Shown here: in pieces, positions 4,126-24,567 of the stretch
Layout: each line of letters starts with the position of its first letter
How positions within the stretch are numbered: the stretch's first letter is position 1
Virus record (IMG/VR): IMGVR_UViG_3300017917_000776
Span: 1-28,953 of that record
DNA length: 28,953 bases
Source: a virus
Strand: one strand, 5' to 3'
The notes under the pieces: generated by a model
The model's input: the letters and a program-made list of their open reading frames with translations, nothing else
Told to the model about the DNA's origin: nothing
The model's database searches: none
Translations under genes and position numbers: made by a program

Positions 4126-4185
4126 TGCAATGAGGAAACCCGCCAAAACTTAATAATAGATCTATTGAAAGTAGAGGTGAAAAAT

Positions 4186-4821
4186 ATGGCATATACTCGT
4201 GGTACGTCTACCAACATTATCGTTGGTGCTGCTGCTCTTTTTGTAGCAGACACAACCCTTACTCCAAGCAGATTGGAGTCATTTGTTAGCACTGAGTCAT
4301 TCAAGGAAACCCTTGCAGATGAAGCAGACTACACAAACGTAGGTTACACCATGAATGGTCTTGAGCTACAGTTCCAACCAGACTTCGGTGAAGTACAGGT
4401 TGATCAGGTTCTTGACGTTGCTAAGTTGTATAAGCAGGGTATGCAGGTAAATCTTGCTACTGCTTTCGCTGAAGCTACACTTGAGAATCTTCTCTTGGCA
4501 CTTGCTTACAGCGACACTAATCTTTCAGGAAATAAGGCAACTTCTGCAGGTAAGGTTCTTGACCTTTCAGCAGGCCAAATCGGAGAATGTCCAGTAGAAC
4601 GAGGAATCGTTGCTGTTGGACCTGGAACTGGCGATTGCGAAGACTCTCTATACGTTGAACGTGTTTATTCAGCATACCGTGCTCTATCAATTGAGAACGT
4701 AACTGTATCAGCAAAGCGTGATGAGGCTTCAATGTTCGAAGTTTCTTTCCGTCTTCTTCCTGAAGATGCATCTGGATCATATGGTAAGATCGTTGATCGT
4801 ACCTGGACACCAGCAAGCTAA
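4186..4821 (+). CDS. Major tail protein (tail tube)
   Basis: This 211-residue protein would polymerise into the tail tube. Evidence is its place just before the chaperones and tape measure, the typical size, and a beta-rich sequence with MAYTRGTSTNIIVGAAALFV at the N-terminus, YTMNGLELQFQPDFGEVQVD in the middle, and a terminal strand block (MFEVSFRLLPEDASGSYGKI). ATG 4186 follows a good SD (GAGGTGA, 4174-4180). An in-frame TTG at 4165 is less likely. Seven of eight arginines are CGT/CGA. The gene is set off by its own promoter-like site and a strong terminator, consistent with many copies being needed. There is no sheath gene, so the tail is probably non-contractile. Confidence 0.8.
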   Translation: MAYTRGTSTNIIVGAAALFVADTTLTPSRLESFVSTESFKETLADEADYTNVGYTMNGLELQFQPDFGEVQVDQVLDVAKLYKQGMQVNLATAFAEATLENLLLALAYSDTNLSGNKATSAGKVLDLSAGQIGECPVERGIVAVGPGTGDCEDSLYVERVYSAYRALSIENVTVSAKRDEASMFEVSFRLLPEDASGSYGKIVDRTWTPAS

Positions 4822-4842: not shown

Positions 4843-4873
4843 AGACCTGCCCTATATCGGGTAGGTCTTTTTT
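4843..4873 (+). terminator. Intrinsic terminator after tail tube gene
   Basis: AGACCTGCCC (4843-4852), loop TATATC, then GGGTAGGTCT (4859-4868). This gives a 10-bp stem with one G-U pair, followed by a run of T ending at 4873. It is the clearest rho-independent terminator in the window and lies 21 bases after the tail tube stop. Confidence 0.9.
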
Positions 4874-4876
4874 GTA

Positions 4877-4885
4877 TGATAAAAT
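4877..4885 (+). promoter_or_regulatory. Extended -10-like site (TGATAAAAT)
   Basis: It starts three bases after the terminator T-run and ends 15 bases before the ATG of the long chaperone gene, so transcription could restart immediately after termination. It varies from the recurrent TGATATAAT in one base. No -35 is recognisable. Confidence 0.45.
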
Positions 4886-4900: not shown

Positions 4901-5593
4901 ATGGCTACTAAAATATATTCAACTAAAAATATTTATTTGTTTGATGGAACAGAGATTGAGCTGTCCCCATTAAAAATAAAATATTTACGTGAATTTATGG
5001 ATACATTTTCTCTTATTAGCCAAACCAAAAATGATGATGATTCGATATTATTATTGCTTGAATGTGTAAGGGTAGCAATGAAACAATATTATCCAAAATT
5101 ATCTAAATCTATATCAGATGTTGAAGATGCAGTAGACATGCCTCTAATTCATGAAATATTAGAAATAGCAGGCGGTATAAAAATAAATGATGATTCTAAA
5201 GAAACAGTAAAGCAACAGGCACAAAATAATGAATCAAAAAACTCATGGGAAGATATAGACTTAGTAAAACTAGAGTCAGAAGTATTCACACTTGGTATTT
5301 GGAAAAATTATGATGACCTAGAAGTATCAATATCTATGCCAGAATTAATGGCTATTATTGCTGGTAGAAGAGAATTAGATTATGAAGAAAAGAAATTTTT
5401 AGCAGCTATTCAAGGAATAGATATAGAAAAAAATCAAGAAAAGGGTCAGAAAGAGTGGGAAGACTTAAAGGCTAGGGTATTCAGCCGTGGCCAAGCAACA
5501 GACTCAAATGATGTTTTAGCACTACAGGGTCAAAATGCTCAAAAGGCAGGGTTTGGTATAGGTTTTGGTCTTGATTATGAAGATTTAAGATAG
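4901..5593 (+). CDS. Long tail assembly chaperone (GT-like)
   Basis: This 230-residue protein has two parts. Residues 1-100 match the short chaperone encoded next (shared DGTEI, PLKI, LR.F, EC...AMKQY). A Q/N/K linker (KQQAQNNESKNS) follows, then a C-terminal domain (SISMPELMAIIAGRRELDYE onward). Short-domain and extended forms of this sort are the G and GT chaperones that coat the tape measure and recruit tail tube subunits. In most phages the long form comes from a ribosomal frameshift. Here it is a single open frame. An in-phase A_AAA_AAC lies at the linker (5236-5242). Arginine codons are mixed and include rare AGG, unlike the short copy. ATG 4901 has GGGG upstream and its own promoter-like site. 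Confidence 0.7.
   Translation: MATKIYSTKNIYLFDGTEIELSPLKIKYLREFMDTFSLISQTKNDDDSILLLLECVRVAMKQYYPKLSKSISDVEDAVDMPLIHEILEIAGGIKINDDSKETVKQQAQNNESKNSWEDIDLVKLESEVFTLGIWKNYDDLEVSISMPELMAIIAGRRELDYEEKKFLAAIQGIDIEKNQEKGQKEWEDLKARVFSRGQATDSNDVLALQGQNAQKAGFGIGFGLDYEDLR
5236..5242 (+). other. In-phase slippery heptamer A_AAA_AAC
   Basis: In the reading frame of the long chaperone the codons are TCA AAA AAC, giving a canonical X_XXY_YYZ heptamer after about 113 codons, exactly at the junction between the N-domain and the C-domain. A -1 shift here would read 23 more codons and stop at 5311-5313, giving about 137 residues. The same heptamer also occurs in phase inside the tape measure gene (8694-8700), so chance is possible. 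Confidence 0.4.
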
Positions 5594-5600
5594 CCTATTA

Positions 5601-5609
5601 TGATATAAT
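5601..5609 (+). promoter_or_regulatory. Extended -10 promoter (TGATATAAT) for the short chaperone
   Basis: An exact TGn-TATAAT lies in the 48-base gap between the two chaperone genes, 32 bases before ATG 5642. It would allow the short form to be made separately and in larger amounts than the long form. Confidence 0.55.
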
Positions 5610-5641
5610 TAATGCAAGCCTATATGGGAGGGAAACAAATA

Positions 5642-5965
5642 ATGGCAACAACAGTTCATGAAGAAAAATCACTTCTTCTTATTGATGGAACAGAGATTAA
5701 GGTACGTCCTTTAAAGATTTCTTTGCTTCGTCCATTTTTGAAGAAGTTTGAAGGAGTTGCGGCAGTGGCGGATGACAATGAAAAGTCAATGACTTTGCTT
5801 GTTGAATGTGCACAAATTGCGATGAAGCAGTATAAGCCAGAAATTGCAGAAGATCTTGAAAAGTTAGAAGAACTACTTGATCTTCCAACAGTTTACAAGA
5901 TTGTTGAAGCAGCTTCTGGAGTAACACTTGGCGGAATGCCAGATGTTATTAATAGTCCTGAATAA
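5642..5965 (+). CDS. Short tail assembly chaperone (G-like), paralogue of the preceding gene
   Basis: This 107-residue protein aligns over its whole length with the N-domain of the gene at 4901 with one single-residue gap. By eye, 18 of the first 36 positions are identical (MAT, K9, DGTEI at 15-19, PLKI at 23-26, LR at 29-30, F32, F36), and later EC and AMKQY also match. It lacks the C-terminal domain, like a lambda gpG-type chaperone. ATG 5642 is chosen because GGGAGGG (5626-5632) spaces well. The in-frame ATG at 5612 overlaps the promoter-like site. Both arginines are CGT and lysines favour AAG, as in the capsid and tube genes, suggesting higher expression than the long form. No T-domain frame follows; the tape measure starts 26 bases later. 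Confidence 0.72.
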   Translation: MATTVHEEKSLLLIDGTEIKVRPLKISLLRPFLKKFEGVAAVADDNEKSMTLLVECAQIAMKQYKPEIAEDLEKLEELLDLPTVYKIVEAASGVTLGGMPDVINSPE

Positions 5966-5991
5966 TTACAACTTAAAATGAGGTGAAGTAA

Positions 5992-8900
5992 TTGGCTGAT
6001 GTAAATGCCGAGATTAACGTAAATATAGATACGTCGGGTGCATTAGCACAGCTTAAAGCTCTCCAAAGAGAGATATCAAGATTTCATGCCTCAGTAGCAA
6101 AAAGTAGCGATGCAGCTGCGTTAGCACAACGTGATCTGCAGAAGAACTTCGTGAATGGAATCAACGCTATTCAGGGGTTCTCTGCAGAACTTCGCACAGT
6201 AAAAACAACTGCAGAAAGCTTTACAGATTCTTTAGAAAAAAATAAATTTTCAATGCGGGAATACTTTAGATATTCCATGGCATCAACAAAAACTTTCGGA
6301 AGACTTTTTTCTTCTGAGTTAGATACAGTAAATAAGGTAGCAACTGAAAACGTAAAACGTTTACAAACACAATATATTAAAATGGGCCGTGATGCAAACG
6401 GTGCAATGAGAGCTATTGCTGTAATGCCAACTAGACTAGACATGAGTAATATGTCTACACAAATACAGATGGCAGCACAAAAACAGGCAATATTTAATCA
6501 ACTTGTTAAACAAGGATCAACAAATCTTTTAAATTTTGGTAAGAATACACAGTGGGCTGGTCGTCAGCTTATGGTTGGTTTTACAATTCCATTGATGGGA
6601 CTTGGCTCAGTTGCAACCAAGACATTTATGGATATGGAAACTGCTGCAATTAAATTTAAGAAGGTATATGGAGATTTATTTACAGCACCAGAGGAAACAC
6701 AATTTGCACTTGATTCAGTTAAAATGCTTGGTAAAGAATTTACTAAATATGGTATTGCTGTTTCTGATACTGTTAGTCTAGCAGCAGAAGCAGCAGCAGC
6801 TGGTTTTTCAGGTTCAGATTTACAAGCACAAGTAACACAAGCAACAAGACTTCAAGTTCTTGGACAAATTGATCAGCAAAAAGCCTTAGAAACAACGATT
6901 TCTTTACAGAATGCTTTTAAAATTAATTCTAATGAATTAGCAGATGCAATTAACTTCTTGAACTCAGTAGAAAACCAAACAGTTGTATCTTTGGATGATA
7001 TTACAACTGCAATTCCAAAAGCAGCACCAATTGTTAAGGATCTTGGCGGAGATGTAAAAGATTTAGCATTCTTTATGGCAGCCATGAAAGAAGGAGGCAT
7101 TAATGCAGCCGAAGGCGCAAATGCATTAAAGTCTGGTCTAGCTTCTCTTATTAATCCAACAAATAAAGCAAAGGGAATGCTCATGGACATGGGCATTAAT
7201 ATTGATCAAATTGTTGAAAGTAATGTTGGAAATCTTAAAGGAACAGTTATTGAATTTGCTAAAGCTCTTGATGGTTTATCTAATTTACAAAGACAAAGAG
7301 CTATTGAACAACTATTTGGCAAGTTCCAGCAAGCACGTCTTTCTGCATTATTTGATAATGTAATTAAGGATGGAAATCAAGCTTCAAGAGTTCTTGATTT
7401 AGCTACGGCATCAATGGAAGATCTAGCTGCACTAGCTGAAAAAGAATTAGGGATTACTGCAGATTCTGCAATGAATAAGTTTAGAGCATCTATTGAAAGT
7501 TTAAAGGCCTCACTTGCACCAGTTGGAGAAGTATTTGTACGTATTCTTACCCCACTATTAGATAAACTTAATGGATTACTAGAATGGTTTAATGGTTTAT
7601 CAGATACGTCTAAGCAGGTAATTGCTAAGGTTGTTCTGTATTTAGGTGGACTAGCTCCAGTAATATTAATGACTATTGGTCTTTTTGCTAACTTTGTTGC
7701 CAATGGTATTAAAGGTCTAATGTTACTTAGAAATGGATTCTTAAGATTAACTGGCCAATCTAAAGTTCTAAGTGAGCAAACTCAATATTTATCTGTTGAA
7801 CAACAAAATGCAATTGCAGCTGCTGCATCCTTAGAACAATCACACATCAAATTACAGCAGGCGTTTACTGGAGAAGCTGGTGCAGTTAGACAATTAATTG
7901 CAGAATATCAAAGAATGATAAATGCACAAAATGTTGCAGCAACAAGATTTCCAGGAATGATGCAACCAGGTTTTAAAGCAAAAGGTTTTGCCAACGGAAT
8001 AGTTAGTGTGCCTGGACCAAAGGGTGCTGGAGATGTTGTTCCAGCAATGGTTTCTCCAGGAGAAGCAATTATTCCAACAGCAATGAATGAAAAATATGGA
8101 TCGTTAGTACAAGGAATTATTGCAGATAATATTCCTGGGTTTATTAATGGTAGAACTGGAAGACCTTCAATTACAGGTGGACAGTCTGTTTTGTATAGTG
8201 GTCTTGCTTTGCCTGCACCAGGAAATACAGCTGCCAATAAATTTGGTATGAGCCGTGATTTTTTTGCACAGGGTGAAGGATTTGCACTTTCTATGTTATC
8301 TGCACTAGGTGCAGGATCATTTAAGCTTGGTCAATCTGCTGGTACAGAAACAAGATCAAGAATGACTGATGTTGTTAGAAAAGAATATGCAGATGATTTA
8401 CAGGTATATGCAGATGAAATTGTTGCAAGTCTAAGAGGAACAGCAGCAAATCTTGGTGGAGTACAAAATGAATCTCTTACAATGGCAAAGATTTTAGAAG
8501 AATCAAAAACAGATCTTTCAGATATTTTTGCAAGAATGAGAAACGCTGGAGGTAAAGCAGCACTTGGAGCAGAAGCTTTAGAAAAACATGGATTCTTCCC
8601 AGGTATGTCAGAATTACAGGGGCCATTTGCAGAAATGAGAGCTCCGTCAGGAAAAGTTGGAGATAAACTTTCTGCAATATCTATGAGAAGATTAAAAAAC
8701 TCAGTATTCCAAGGTCCAGTAGAGGGAATGTGGAAATTCTTAACAAAGAATAAGCCAGACCTAGCTGGATTAAAAACAACATATGCACATTTAAATGAAG
8801 CAAGACTTTTAGGTGCTGTAATGCCAATGTCTGGCGGAGGCATGGCTCCAGGTTCTATGTCTGAACAAGAACGAGCATCATTAATTGCAAATGTTCAAGC

Positions 8901-11556
8901 AAAAAGTTCTCAGGCACAATCTGCATATAGCGCAACTGAAATAAGATCTGCACAAGCATTAAGACAAAAGGCTCAACTAGATGCAAAAACATATCAAGAA
9001 ACAATAGATAAAAATACTCAAGATATTTATGCCCAAAGTAGAGATAGAAAGAGCCCTCATCCTCTTGCTATTCAGGACGGACAAGATGATGGTCGTGCAT
9101 ATCAAAATGCAAGAATAAAAGGAATGCAGCAGGTTGGCGGTAAAGGAACATCTTCTGCTGCAACAGCATTAATTAATCCAAGAACTGGAAAAGCATTTAC
9201 AGATAAAGAACTTTCTGATTTACGTAGAGTAAGAGCATCTGAAGTTGGAATACTTGCAGCTGGTATGGGTGGACCAGAATCAGATATTCCAGAAGGAAAA
9301 GTTGGAAAGTCTACTAGAGTTGGCAGATTACGTGGTGCGGTAGGTCGTGGATTTGGAAGAGCAAGAGGAGCAGGCGGAGGTTTAGGGCTTTCTGGGTTAC
9401 TCTTAGGGTTATCAATGCTACCTGGCAAATTTGGTCAATTAGCACAGTCAATAATGCCAGCAGTATTTGCATTCCAAGCTTTTGGAATGTTAAAAAATAT
9501 TATAGGTGGATGGCCAACCTTATTACTAGCAGTAGGTGTTGGACTATATCAGTTTAATAAGACTGCAATAAAAGCTGCAGAAGAAATTGCAGATGCAGCA
9601 AAAATGGAGGCAGAAGCAAGATATGGCAGCATAAAGTCTCTAGAGGATTTTTCAAAATTTACTGGAAGAGCACTTCCAAGCGCAAGAGAGTTTAGTAGAA
9701 ATAATAGACAGCTTATTTCTGCAAGTGGAGAAGCAGCAAAGCGTTTTGCAGAATTTTATGGACAAAAGGGTAATAGAGCAACACAAGTAATTAATAAAGC
9801 AGCATTAAAGGGTCCACAGGCAGGAATTAATGCAGCTGCAGTTGATGTTGCACAAAGAGCAGCTATATTTGGTTTAGGACCTGCAGATATAGCAGCAAAT
9901 ATTAAGGCAGCTGCAGATCTAATTGGTGCAGATCAAGTTAAGCTAAAAATGGCGGTACAGTCAATACTTTCTCCAGATGGAAAAGATATTACAAAAGAAC
10001 CTCTAACTATTAAAGCACGAATGGAATTTTTAAGACAAAGTGGAACACAGAATATTGAGTCTATTACAAAAGCTATTCAAAATATATCAAAAATAAAGTT
10101 ACCAACATCTTTTGGAGCAAAGGTAAATTATCAACAGCTTAAAAGAGCTGCTGGAATGCAGGAGTCAATTAATCAATCATATAGTGGTGGTATTGGTGGC
10201 AATCTTATTGGTCTTGGCAAACAGGCTTTGCGTGGTCTTGATGTTAGAGTTCCAACTGGCGTTAATGCATTAAAAGATTTTGGAGATATACAAAATAAAG
10301 TTCAGTCAGCCACTACTCAGCTAACAGCAGCATTTACTCAAGAAACTGAATCATTAGGTTTATTAAATGCACAATATGCAGATGGATTAATAACAAAAGA
10401 AGAATATGATGCACAAATGGTAATTTCTTCTGAAAATTTTGCAAAACTTGCTGATTCAACTAAAGATTTAGTAGGTGAGTTAGATAAGGTTGATTCTAGT
10501 GGAGAATTATCTGCTGCAGCATTAAAAGACTTAGGTAATCAAGCATTTGCAGCATTAAAAAAGACTAATCCAGAATTATTTAAAAAGATAACTAAGTCTT
10601 TAGAAGGTTTAGATAGTGCTGCACAAATTGATATTATGATGGGGTATGCACAAGGCAGCATGACAATACTAGATATTGCAAAATTACCAAGCTTGCTAGA
10701 TCAAATAGATGGCAAAACTGTAGAAGCTGCAATAAATATTTTAGCAAAATCTGGAATAAATGCTGGTTTCCTTGAACAAGATATTAGAGATCAATTAGAT
10801 ATTATTGATAAAGCAATTAAAAACTACTCTGGTCCAAAAACTGGGTCTGAAGCATATGCATATTATCAACTTTTAGATAGAAGAAAAGGTTTGGCTGCAG
10901 AATTAGCTAAGATTGAGGCAAGTAAAAAGGTTATACCTGGAGCAGGCAAAGATACTGATAACGCTAATAAAAATGTATCATCATCTACTGTTGGAAAATT
11001 TTTAAATCCATATGAAAAAGAACTTGATATATTAAATCAAAAACGAGATGCGCTAAAAGAGATTAATGATGAGTTAGATCGTCAAAATCAATATCAAATG
11101 AAACAGCTAGATCTTATTAATCAAGCTGCTAAAGCAAAAATGACAGGAAACTATCTTGAGGCTGCAGCACTACAACAACAGTCTATGTTGGAAGGCGGTA
11201 AATTTGCAAGAGAAAGTAAGATTGTTCAAATGGACAAACTTATTAATATGGTTGAGGCAAGAAGTAAAATAGTTGCTGATACTAAGAAACTTACTGCTAC
11301 AGATACAACTCTTCTTGGAAAATTACGTTCTGGCAGTTATAGTAGTTTAGTTCCTGTTCCAACAACACCAAATGTTGGATTTGGAGCAAAATATACTGGC
11401 ACTGGAAATGAAACATCTACAAATGTGGGCGGATCAGTGTATAATGTAACTATGAATGTAACTGGAAGTAATTCTGATGAAATTGCATCTAGAGTATTAC
11501 AGAAACTTAAAATTATGGAAAGTAAAACTAATAAGAGTAATAAGGTAGGACTATAA
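5992..11556 (+). CDS. Tape measure protein
   Basis: This 1854-residue protein sets tail length and probably helps DNA entry. It starts at TTG 5992 after AGGTGA, the only well-spaced start. Residues about 1-200 are helical and alanine-rich. About 200-450 resemble the TP901-type tape measure core (FMDMETAAIKFKKVYGD ... MKEGGINAAEGANALKSGL). A hydrophobic segment lies at about 542-575 (VVLYLGGLAPVILMTIGLFA). A loop at about 665-695 carries FANGIVSVPGPKGAGD and PAMVSPGEAIIP, a motif common in actinophage tape measures. A second hydrophobic region lies at about 1128-1188 (GLSGLLLGLSML, PTLLLAVGVGLYQF), followed by more helix and a short beta-rich tail with YNVTMNVTGSN. At about 1.5 angstrom per residue the tail would be near 280 nm. 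The stop overlaps the next ATG (TAATG). Confidence 0.93.
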   Translation: MADVNAEINVNIDTSGALAQLKALQREISRFHASVAKSSDAAALAQRDLQKNFVNGINAIQGFSAELRTVKTTAESFTDSLEKNKFSMREYFRYSMASTKTFGRLFSSELDTVNKVATENVKRLQTQYIKMGRDANGAMRAIAVMPTRLDMSNMSTQIQMAAQKQAIFNQLVKQGSTNLLNFGKNTQWAGRQLMVGFTIPLMGLGSVATKTFMDMETAAIKFKKVYGDLFTAPEETQFALDSVKMLGKEFTKYGIAVSDTVSLAAEAAAAGFSGSDLQAQVTQATRLQVLGQIDQQKALETTISLQNAFKINSNELADAINFLNSVENQTVVSLDDITTAIPKAAPIVKDLGGDVKDLAFFMAAMKEGGINAAEGANALKSGLASLINPTNKAKGMLMDMGINIDQIVESNVGNLKGTVIEFAKALDGLSNLQRQRAIEQLFGKFQQARLSALFDNVIKDGNQASRVLDLATASMEDLAALAEKELGITADSAMNKFRASIESLKASLAPVGEVFVRILTPLLDKLNGLLEWFNGLSDTSKQVIAKVVLYLGGLAPVILMTIGLFANFVANGIKGLMLLRNGFLRLTGQSKVLSEQTQYLSVEQQNAIAAAASLEQSHIKLQQAFTGEAGAVRQLIAEYQRMINAQNVAATRFPGMMQPGFKAKGFANGIVSVPGPKGAGDVVPAMVSPGEAIIPTAMNEKYGSLVQGIIADNIPGFINGRTGRPSITGGQSVLYSGLALPAPGNTAANKFGMSRDFFAQGEGFALSMLSALGAGSFKLGQSAGTETRSRMTDVVRKEYADDLQVYADEIVASLRGTAANLGGVQNESLTMAKILEESKTDLSDIFARMRNAGGKAALGAEALEKHGFFPGMSELQGPFAEMRAPSGKVGDKLSAISMRRLKNSVFQGPVEGMWKFLTKNKPDLAGLKTTYAHLNEARLLGAVMPMSGGGMAPGSMSEQERASLIANVQAKSSQAQSAYSATEIRSAQALRQKAQLDAKTYQETIDKNTQDIYAQSRDRKSPHPLAIQDGQDDGRAYQNARIKGMQQVGGKGTSSAATALINPRTGKAFTDKELSDLRRVRASEVGILAAGMGGPESDIPEGKVGKSTRVGRLRGAVGRGFGRARGAGGGLGLSGLLLGLSMLPGKFGQLAQSIMPAVFAFQAFGMLKNIIGGWPTLLLAVGVGLYQFNKTAIKAAEEIADAAKMEAEARYGSIKSLEDFSKFTGRALPSAREFSRNNRQLISASGEAAKRFAEFYGQKGNRATQVINKAALKGPQAGINAAAVDVAQRAAIFGLGPADIAANIKAAADLIGADQVKLKMAVQSILSPDGKDITKEPLTIKARMEFLRQSGTQNIESITKAIQNISKIKLPTSFGAKVNYQQLKRAAGMQESINQSYSGGIGGNLIGLGKQALRGLDVRVPTGVNALKDFGDIQNKVQSATTQLTAAFTQETESLGLLNAQYADGLITKEEYDAQMVISSENFAKLADSTKDLVGELDKVDSSGELSAAALKDLGNQAFAALKKTNPELFKKITKSLEGLDSAAQIDIMMGYAQGSMTILDIAKLPSLLDQIDGKTVEAAINILAKSGINAGFLEQDIRDQLDIIDKAIKNYSGPKTGSEAYAYYQLLDRRKGLAAELAKIEASKKVIPGAGKDTDNANKNVSSSTVGKFLNPYEKELDILNQKRDALKEINDELDRQNQYQMKQLDLINQAAKAKMTGNYLEAAALQQQSMLEGGKFARESKIVQMDKLINMVEARSKIVADTKKLTATDTTLLGKLRSGSYSSLVPVPTTPNVGFGAKYTGTGNETSTNVGGSVYNVTMNVTGSNSDEIASRVLQKLKIMESKTNKSNKVGL

Positions 11557-16164: not shown

Positions 16165-16173
16165 TGATATAAT
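16165..16173 (+). promoter_or_regulatory. Extended -10 promoter (TGATATAAT) before the fibre block
   Basis: This exact match is 19 bases before ATG 16193 and adjoins the palindrome at 16151-16163. It would drive the lectin-like and fibre genes. AAAGGAG at 16181-16187 is the ribosome site. No -35 is seen. Confidence 0.55.
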
Positions 16174-16192
16174 TGTATATAAAGGAGAATAA

Positions 16193-16681
16193 ATGTCTTA
16201 CGTAAAAATATCAGACCCAGCAATTATAGATTTGGCGGGTATTCAACAAATTATTAGTGTTGTAAATCAACACAGCGACTATCTCAATGTGCTCATTAAC
16301 AAGCTTGGTGTATTAAATAACCCAGATTGGACTGCCGATGATCTTGATGCAATTAATGATTTAGCAAATACAACAATTGCATATGGTAAAAGAAAAATTG
16401 CAGATACATCTTCCCAAAGGTTTTTAACTTCAAACAATAAAAGATTTTATGCAAGACCAGTAACATTCGGCTCTGGAGTATCTTTTTCTCAGCCACCAAG
16501 AGTTGTTGCTACAGTGGATAACTCAGAGCACTCATCAAACACACAGTTAGACTTTATTGTTTCTGTACATGATGTAACTACGACAGGCTTTACAATAAGA
16601 CTCATGAGAGCTGGTTCACAGGGAACTTTAGAGATGGCTGACAATATTCTTGTAAATTGGATTGCTATAGGACCAAGGTAA
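16193..16681 (+). CDS. H-type-lectin-like tail protein
   Basis: This 162-residue protein has a helical N-terminal half (IIDLAGIQQIISVVNQHSDY ... DLDAINDLANTTIAYGKRK) that could trimerise or anchor to the baseplate. The second half (about 85-162) has the H-type lectin pattern: an opening VTFGSGVSFSQPPRVVATVD, a middle strand FIVSVHDVTTTGFTIRLMRA, and a closing NWIAIGPR. H-type lectin folds bind sugars and occur in tail-tip and receptor-binding proteins, so host recognition is likely. Good SD (AAAGGAG) before ATG 16193. The next gene follows after eight bases. Confidence 0.65.
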   Translation: MSYVKISDPAIIDLAGIQQIISVVNQHSDYLNVLINKLGVLNNPDWTADDLDAINDLANTTIAYGKRKIADTSSQRFLTSNNKRFYARPVTFGSGVSFSQPPRVVATVDNSEHSSNTQLDFIVSVHDVTTTGFTIRLMRAGSQGTLEMADNILVNWIAIGPR

Positions 16682-24133: not shown

Positions 24134-24346
24134 ATGAATAATATAGATAAAATAGAAATATTAAATGATAAAATAAATAATCTATCAAAAATTATAGATG
24201 GACTATCTTATGGAATATCTAATATACCATGGGATGAATCCAAGGGTATAGACTCAAGGGAACAAGATTTATCCGATTATATCCTAAAAAAGGAGGCACT
24301 TTTAAAAGAGCTTCAGGATATACAGGATAGTGATATAATATACTAG
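24134..24346 (+). CDS. Small probable coiled-coil protein A
   Basis: This 70-residue charged protein is almost entirely helical, with heptad-like hydrophobics (IDKIEILNDKINNLSKIIDG), a short loop around NIPWDESKGID, and a second helix (LSDYILKKEALLKELQDIQ). No known motif. It begins three bases after the fibre stop with only a weak AGGT site, so it may be coupled to the fibre gene. The overall layout resembles the next gene. It could be a fibre chaperone or minor tail factor, but this is not shown. Confidence 0.6.
   Translation: MNNIDKIEILNDKINNLSKIIDGLSYGISNIPWDESKGIDSREQDLSDYILKKEALLKELQDIQDSDIIY
24331..24339 (+). promoter_or_regulatory. Extended -10 promoter (TGATATAAT)
   Basis: An exact match inside the last codons of small protein A, 15 bases before ATG 24355. 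The AGGAGG ribosome site follows at 24345-24350, so a transcript from here would have a leader of only about 10 bases. It may begin the transcript that leads into the regulator and replication genes. Confidence 0.5.
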
Positions 24347-24354
24347 GAGGAAAA

Positions 24355-24567
24355 ATGACAACACTAAGCAATGAAGAAAAAATAACCATAGTTAATCAAC
24401 ATAAAAGAACTGTTGAGTATACTAAGTATGGAGTAGAGCTTTCCATCAAGGAAGAGAATGCCGTAGATAGTCCAAATCAGGATGCTATTAGCTCTCTTAA
24501 CGAGCAGCTAGCTGATTTAAATAGCAAGCTTGCAGTGCTTGATGCAGAAATAACTGCTTTATCATAA
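24355..24567 (+). CDS. Small probable coiled-coil protein B
   Basis: This 70-residue protein has the same size and helix-loop-helix layout as the preceding gene: EEKITIVNQHKRTVEYTKYG, a loop ENAVDSPNQD, then a clear heptad helix LNEQLADLNSKLAVLDAEIT. Similarity to protein A is only suggestive (KI-I-N near the start, a D-containing loop, a C-terminal leucine-rich helix). It has a strong SD (AGGAGG) and its own promoter-like site. Function unknown. It has no membrane segment, so it is not a holin. Confidence 0.65.
   Translation: MTTLSNEEKITIVNQHKRTVEYTKYGVELSIKEENAVDSPNQDAISSLNEQLADLNSKLAVLDAEITALS

Follow-up and report, generated by a model that had tools for sequence, protein, structure and literature searches.

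In phage lambda, the 30:1 molar ratio of the tail assembly chaperones G and GT has been described as crucial, and the G/GT frameshift has been described as conserved in long-tailed phages at large, T4 being an exception (PMC5009743). Subclusters of Microbacterium cluster EA have no evident tail chaperone frameshift (PMC7302621), and none was detected in subcluster B4 mycobacteriophages (PMC8248883). The phages of Stanwilliamsviridae (Coruscant, EGole, BillNye, Gilson and others) carry the same N and T domains as the locus described here (36-45% identity), and these domains occupy the same place between the major tail protein and tape measure genes. However, the Stanwilliamsviridae have a single N domain, with T in the -1 frame, and no paralogue. 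The locus analyzed here comes from a virus record of 28,953 bases (the whole stretch is called the window below), with exactly two chaperone genes between the major tail protein and tape measure genes. Our main reading, to which we give a probability of about 0.77, is that these genes encode G and GT, that they arose through a duplication with loss of the slip site, and that unequal leaders would set the amounts of the two proteins.

Gene layout and identity of the two proteins

All features given below were on the plus strand. The upstream neighbor, the major tail protein gene (4186..4821), matched phrog_2175 (Ig-domain protein, 5e-34) and phrog_885 (major tail protein, 8e-6) and is annotated as such in relatives; its reading frame was listed from a TTG at 4165, the likely start being the ATG at 4186. 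The gap behind it contained an intrinsic terminator-like hairpin followed by a T run (4843..4868; 10-pair stem, TTTTTG tail) and, 24 nt 5' of the ATG of the long gene, a sequence match to an extended -10 element, TGATAAAAT (4877..4885), which was off consensus. The long gene, the predicted GT (4901..5593), encodes 230 aa with an N domain at about residues 1-98, a linker and a T domain at about residues 115-230; the N and T domains share one uninterrupted frame. A perfect match to the extended -10 element, TGATATAAT (5601..5609), which was kept in relatives, and a Shine-Dalgarno (SD) sequence read as GGGAGGG (5626..5632) preceded the short gene, the predicted G (5642..5965). Its product of 107 aa was recognized by homology to the long-gene N domain as an N-domain-only paralogue. 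The start at 5642 was favored over an in-frame ATG at 5612 because the MAT at 5642 aligned with all relatives. The tape measure protein gene followed downstream (5992..11556) and matched phrog_10030 (tape measure, 2e-105) and PhageMin_Tail (4e-26). The N domains of the long and short proteins (N1 and N2) were 39% identical (E 5.5e-23, one-genome search), and profile-profile comparison of the two gave a probability of 99.9% over 99 columns. The sequence-only reading had placed the long form first, with a separate N-domain-only paralogue behind it that carried its own SD and a further sequence element, and both descriptions agreed with the features found at these positions.

When the long protein was used as a query in tblastn, 130 phage records were retrieved, nearly all of them Streptomyces phages of Stanwilliamsviridae, with values down to 3e-38 over 85% of the protein. 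The match in the Stanwilliamsviridae records covered two genes, annotated as tail assembly chaperone or hypothetical protein, and the homology extended over both the N and T domains, in genes placed between those of the major tail protein and the tape measure. A joined chaperone gene was annotated in TunaTartare, Phredrick and the Rhodococcus phage NiceHouse. Since T lies in the -1 frame in Stanwilliamsviridae and joined genes are annotated in relatives, GT is the counterpart of the long protein of the window, and G that of the short one. The earlier proposal that the long protein is a chaperone was put to a refutation test and stood, the protein being homologous to annotated tail assembly chaperones; nor were unrelated proteins found at these loci in relatives, where the same two genes were present. 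We take the two genes to be the tail assembly chaperones G and GT, with a chaperone function predicted from homology.

Other searches gave less specific results. Both N domains matched phrog_10504 and the T domain phrog_10474, neither of which has a named function. Pfam and NCBIfam contained no family for the long or the short protein, and in a sequence search of the PDB the long profile had no match and the short profile chance matches only. The AlphaFold models were of low confidence, with a mean pLDDT of 65 and 59; the value of 65 was that of the long protein, whose N domain reached about 82. The best Foldseek matches of the long-protein model among viral proteins included several tail assembly chaperones, with a weak match to N15 GT, and nothing credible was found by Foldseek against the PDB, so that the chaperone role is only weakly supported by fold comparison.

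Two arrangements among relatives and the origin of the fused type

Viral contigs were scanned with both proteins of the window, with the single-gene homologue from locus L175 and with a T-domain alignment, and genome contigs were scanned in addition. This gave about 410 loci, some of them overlapping stretches of one contig fetched by different queries. When 412 loci were classified with domain profiles, 198 had a fused N1-T gene followed by N2 (fused type), and 205 had a single N with T in the -1 frame (frameshift type). The sets of distinct sequences used for statistics comprised 123 of the fused and 70 of the frameshift type. No true intermediate (a fused long gene without the short gene, or a duplicated N with a frameshift) was observed in the 412 loci. 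Only N1-T was seen at five loci, four of which were at contig ends; the fifth (L037) had an inserted gene and then the contig end. Three T-only loci and one N-only locus came from two Rhodococcus phages, with an N domain beyond the reach of the profiles, and from contigs ending there. L254 and L255 had been considered as a duplication intermediate (N > N > T) and were rejected, the first "N" being a spurious weak match of an unrelated protein.

Every relative examined from 50,697 deposited phage records was of the frameshift type, and so was the one locus (L175) from the scan of genome contigs. L175 (CAINGU010000031.1) is a 110-kb contig with the frameshift-type chaperone locus of this phage family in a MAG labelled uncultured cyanobacterium, and is probably a phage contig binned by mistake. 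In the Streptomyces phages Faust and Gilson (L169:2091-2150 and L172:2058-2147), T was annotated as a gene of 20-30 codons; the -1 frame is open for more than 100 codons, and the frameshift was missed in the annotation. Judging from the relatives, the host of the window phage would be a freshwater actinobacterium.

The slip site was kept in one type and lost in the other. T was in the -1 frame in all 205 frameshift-type loci, and an in-phase CCCAAAY heptamer sat in the overlap of the frames in 64 of the 70 distinct sequences (CCCAAAC in 41 and CCCAAAT in 23). Five sequences without the heptamer were Streptomyces phages, with CCCGGAA there or (one) unresolved by the script, and one sequence had another heptamer only. 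CCCGGAA stood in place of CCCAAAC/T in the Boydwoodruffvirinae phages (L003, L004, L171 and L173) and may be a weaker or different slip site. Among the fused type, 106 of 121 distinct linkers contained no in-phase XXXYYYZ heptamer. The short and long forms have a common N domain as in lambda, but as two genes; both forms are not made from one start via a slippery site, T being in frame with N1 and no in-phase heptamer being conserved. An A AAA AAC in the linker of the window was considered as a residual slip site and dismissed, as near relatives code the same S-K-N residues as TCT AAA AAC or TCC AAA AAT and the heptamer is not conserved.

In trees of the N and T domains, which were built on only about 100 columns each and disagreed on the nearest frameshift group, N1 formed one clade (99/89), N2 formed one clade (100/97), N1 and N2 grouped together (100/98) beside the single G proteins, and the fused-type T domains were one clade (99/96). 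In the tape measure tree (700 columns), the fused clade (100) was sister to the freshwater frameshift type (support 84), the Streptomyces frameshift phages fell outside, and Rhodococcus phages served as an outgroup on whose long branches the root rests. On these trees the fused type has a single origin, independent of the disagreement over the nearest group and of the root. The frameshift is present in all three outer groups, so that the simplest history is one duplication and in-frame fusion in one ancestor. The fused type was probably derived from the frameshift type, a direction that depends on the nearest group and the outgroup. The one-gene frameshift relatives that the sequence-only reading had suggested looking for do exist, as a sister group.

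Leaders, codons and the supply of G and GT

A perfect extended -10 element, TGNTATAAT, was located 32-41 nt 5' of the short-gene start in 123 of 123 distinct loci. In the first set of sequences it was within 60 nt of that start in 104 of 104 distinct loci, compared with 0.57% expected per such window; the loci are related and hence not independent trials, but the flanks have diverged and the element has not. The element was highly conserved and its surroundings little. GGAGG stood no more than 20 nt from the start in 121 of 123 short genes and in none of 120 long genes, and the mean SD pairing energy was -12.2 kcal/mol for the short gene vs -3.8 kcal/mol for the long gene. The short-gene leader recurred in the freshwater frameshift phages, whose single G gene had a perfect -10 element 31-38 nt upstream in 58 of 60 and GGAG in 60 of 60.

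The short-gene leader was also retained after an insertion. At L029, a gene resembling endonuclease VII (HNH type, with zinc-binding motifs; 5715-6343) lay between the long and short genes and is likely to be a mobile insertion. TGGTATAAT and GGAGG were still directly upstream of the short gene despite the inserted nuclease gene, showing that the short gene keeps its own promoter when parted from the long gene. At L037, another gene (5700-6223), 2OG-Fe(II) oxygenase-like by eye, followed the long gene with its own TGCTATAAT and GGAG; that contig ends before any short gene could be seen.

The long gene had a different leader. A terminator-like structure was found between the major tail protein and long genes in 94 of 102 distinct relatives, followed by a -10 element of the form TGNTA[AGT]A[AC]T, 14-24 nt 5' of the ATG, in which TG and TANNNT were kept. 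This element was off consensus in 91 of 102 relatives, and all 8 consensus bases were present in only 11 of 102. The promoters described here are sequence matches; with the usual 5-9 nt between a -10 element and the transcription start, the leader of the long-gene transcript would be 0 to about 9 nt. Leaderless transcripts can be translated well in actinobacteria, so a long gene without an SD does not prove a low output. No terminator was detected between the long and short genes in the set of relatives, indicating that the long-gene mRNA also runs through the short gene, which would only add to G.

Further perfect TGATATAAT elements were observed in the window at 1050-1120 (1082), 16165-16195 and 24331-24357, with an SD and an ATG within about 25-57 nt after them. 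As it stands before other genes too, the combination of promoter and SD appears to be a promoter type that this phage uses generally. One reading frame of 122 aa, listed at 1095 (ATG 1107), contained a Rho_N/SAP-like stretch.

Codon usage differed between the two copies. The sequence-only reading had contrasted a CGT-rich short copy with a mixed long copy; in the window itself the arginine codons of the short gene numbered 2, both CGT, which is too few alone, and those of the long gene were AGA (3), AGG (2) and CGT (2). The contrast was borne out over 102 distinct relatives, in which the CGT share of arginine codons was 45% in N2, 15% in N1 and 79% in the major tail protein; the main arginine codon was CGT in N2 and AGA in N1 and T. 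The codon adaptation index, calculated against the major tail protein gene, was higher in N2 than in N1 in 102 of 102 relatives (means of 0.623 vs 0.469). Median dN/dS values among near relatives were 0.28 for N1, 0.17 for T and 0.14 for N2. All three were under purifying selection, and N2 most strictly, as expected of a highly expressed G, which argues against a decaying duplicate.

With the promoter, SD and codon contrasts as proxies, the predicted control of the G:GT ratio by expression is well supported. The sequence-only reading had proposed that the frameshift was replaced in this way; the proposal is supported by a fused gene that has lost its slip site and by the conserved differences in promoter, leader and codons, and the ratio itself is what we infer from them. 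The proposed history starts from an ancestor in which a -1 ribosomal frameshift at CCCAAAY would have yielded GT, and a single tandem duplication of the G (N) domain would have followed. One copy would have been fused in frame to T, with the slip site lost, and the other would have shed T while retaining or regaining the strong leader of G (extended -10 promoter, leader of about 26 nt, GGAGG). GT would be transcribed at a low level, through terminator read-through after the major tail gene and/or from the weaker -10 element with a start 0-9 nt 5' of the ATG. G, with its own consensus promoter, its ribosome site and better codons, would be made in excess. By analogy with lambda, many G and few GT molecules would then cover the tape measure protein and bring in the major tail protein.

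Three other explanations were weighed against this one. The short paralogue could have taken on a new role, for example in the baseplate or in head-tail joining, with the long protein alone acting as chaperone and the ratio irrelevant. The N1/N2 split is old, with only 36-50% identity within one genome, which speaks for this reading; we nevertheless consider it unlikely, because the core of the N domain is conserved in N2, which is the better conserved of the two copies (dN/dS 0.14), always sits after the long gene and ahead of the tape measure gene, and has the type of leader seen before the single G gene. Moreover, no genome with the long gene only was found, save the four contigs ending there and L037. 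A single transcript from an upstream promoter, with the -10 elements as decoys and the ratio set by translation initiation or after synthesis only, is very unlikely. The genes are close and co-directional with no terminator between them, but a perfect TGNTATAAT in 123 of 123 loci, at a narrow distance and with low conservation around it, speaks against decoys, as does its being kept when a foreign gene was inserted upstream.

It is very unlikely that a dnaX-like frameshift into an early stop still lets the long gene supply the two forms, with the short paralogue as an additional copy that does something else. The in-phase A AAA AAC of the window lies exactly in the linker; however, the 106 heptamer-free linkers, the many close relatives in which the same S-K-N residues are coded without the heptamer, and the strong conserved leader, which belongs to the short gene and not to the long one, all speak against it. 

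We consider it likely that this freshwater clade swapped one of the most conserved programmed frameshifts of tailed phages for a gene duplication with a division of labor, with a conserved pair of unequal promoters and ribosome sites setting the ratio and a nearly leaderless GT transcript.

Comparison with known systems

In this large group of lake viruses, two gene copies, the long one driven weakly and the short one strongly, would do the work of a ribosome slip. The sister phage groups, one with a frameshift and the other with two genes, are a natural experiment on the purpose of the frameshift: if nothing beyond a fixed ratio is required, the strength of promoter and ribosome site can supply it. 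The case illustrates how a recoding event may be lost through duplication and division of labor. For annotation, a second N-domain reading frame ahead of the tape measure gene can serve as a sign that the frameshift has been lost.

The nearest group by the tape measure tree, the freshwater frameshift phages (most IMG/VR loci from L176 to L302 and the MAG locus L175), has a single G with the strong leader of the short gene. It differs in having a CCCAAAC/T slip site and T in the -1 frame. Lambda G and GT resemble the genes of the window in being a short and a long form with a common N part, encoded before the tape measure gene. However, lambda has one gene and a -1 frameshift, whereas the window has two genes with separate leaders, and the Foldseek match to N15 GT is weak. 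In pairs of the lambda type the short form is in large excess, its G part binds the tape measure protein and the T part the major tail protein, and the chaperones are not present in the virion. In cluster EA and subcluster B4, as far as the accessible text of those reports goes, the tail chaperone genes are likewise not linked by a frameshift, but two separately expressed reading frames or a single chaperone are described, with no report of an in-frame GT together with a promoter-bearing N paralogue. Loss of the tail chaperone frameshift per se was already known from cluster EA and subcluster B4, and T4 is an exception. The searchable literature yielded no precedents for the arrangement other than cluster EA and subcluster B4, and no case in which an in-frame GT stands before an N-domain paralogue that has a conserved promoter of its own.
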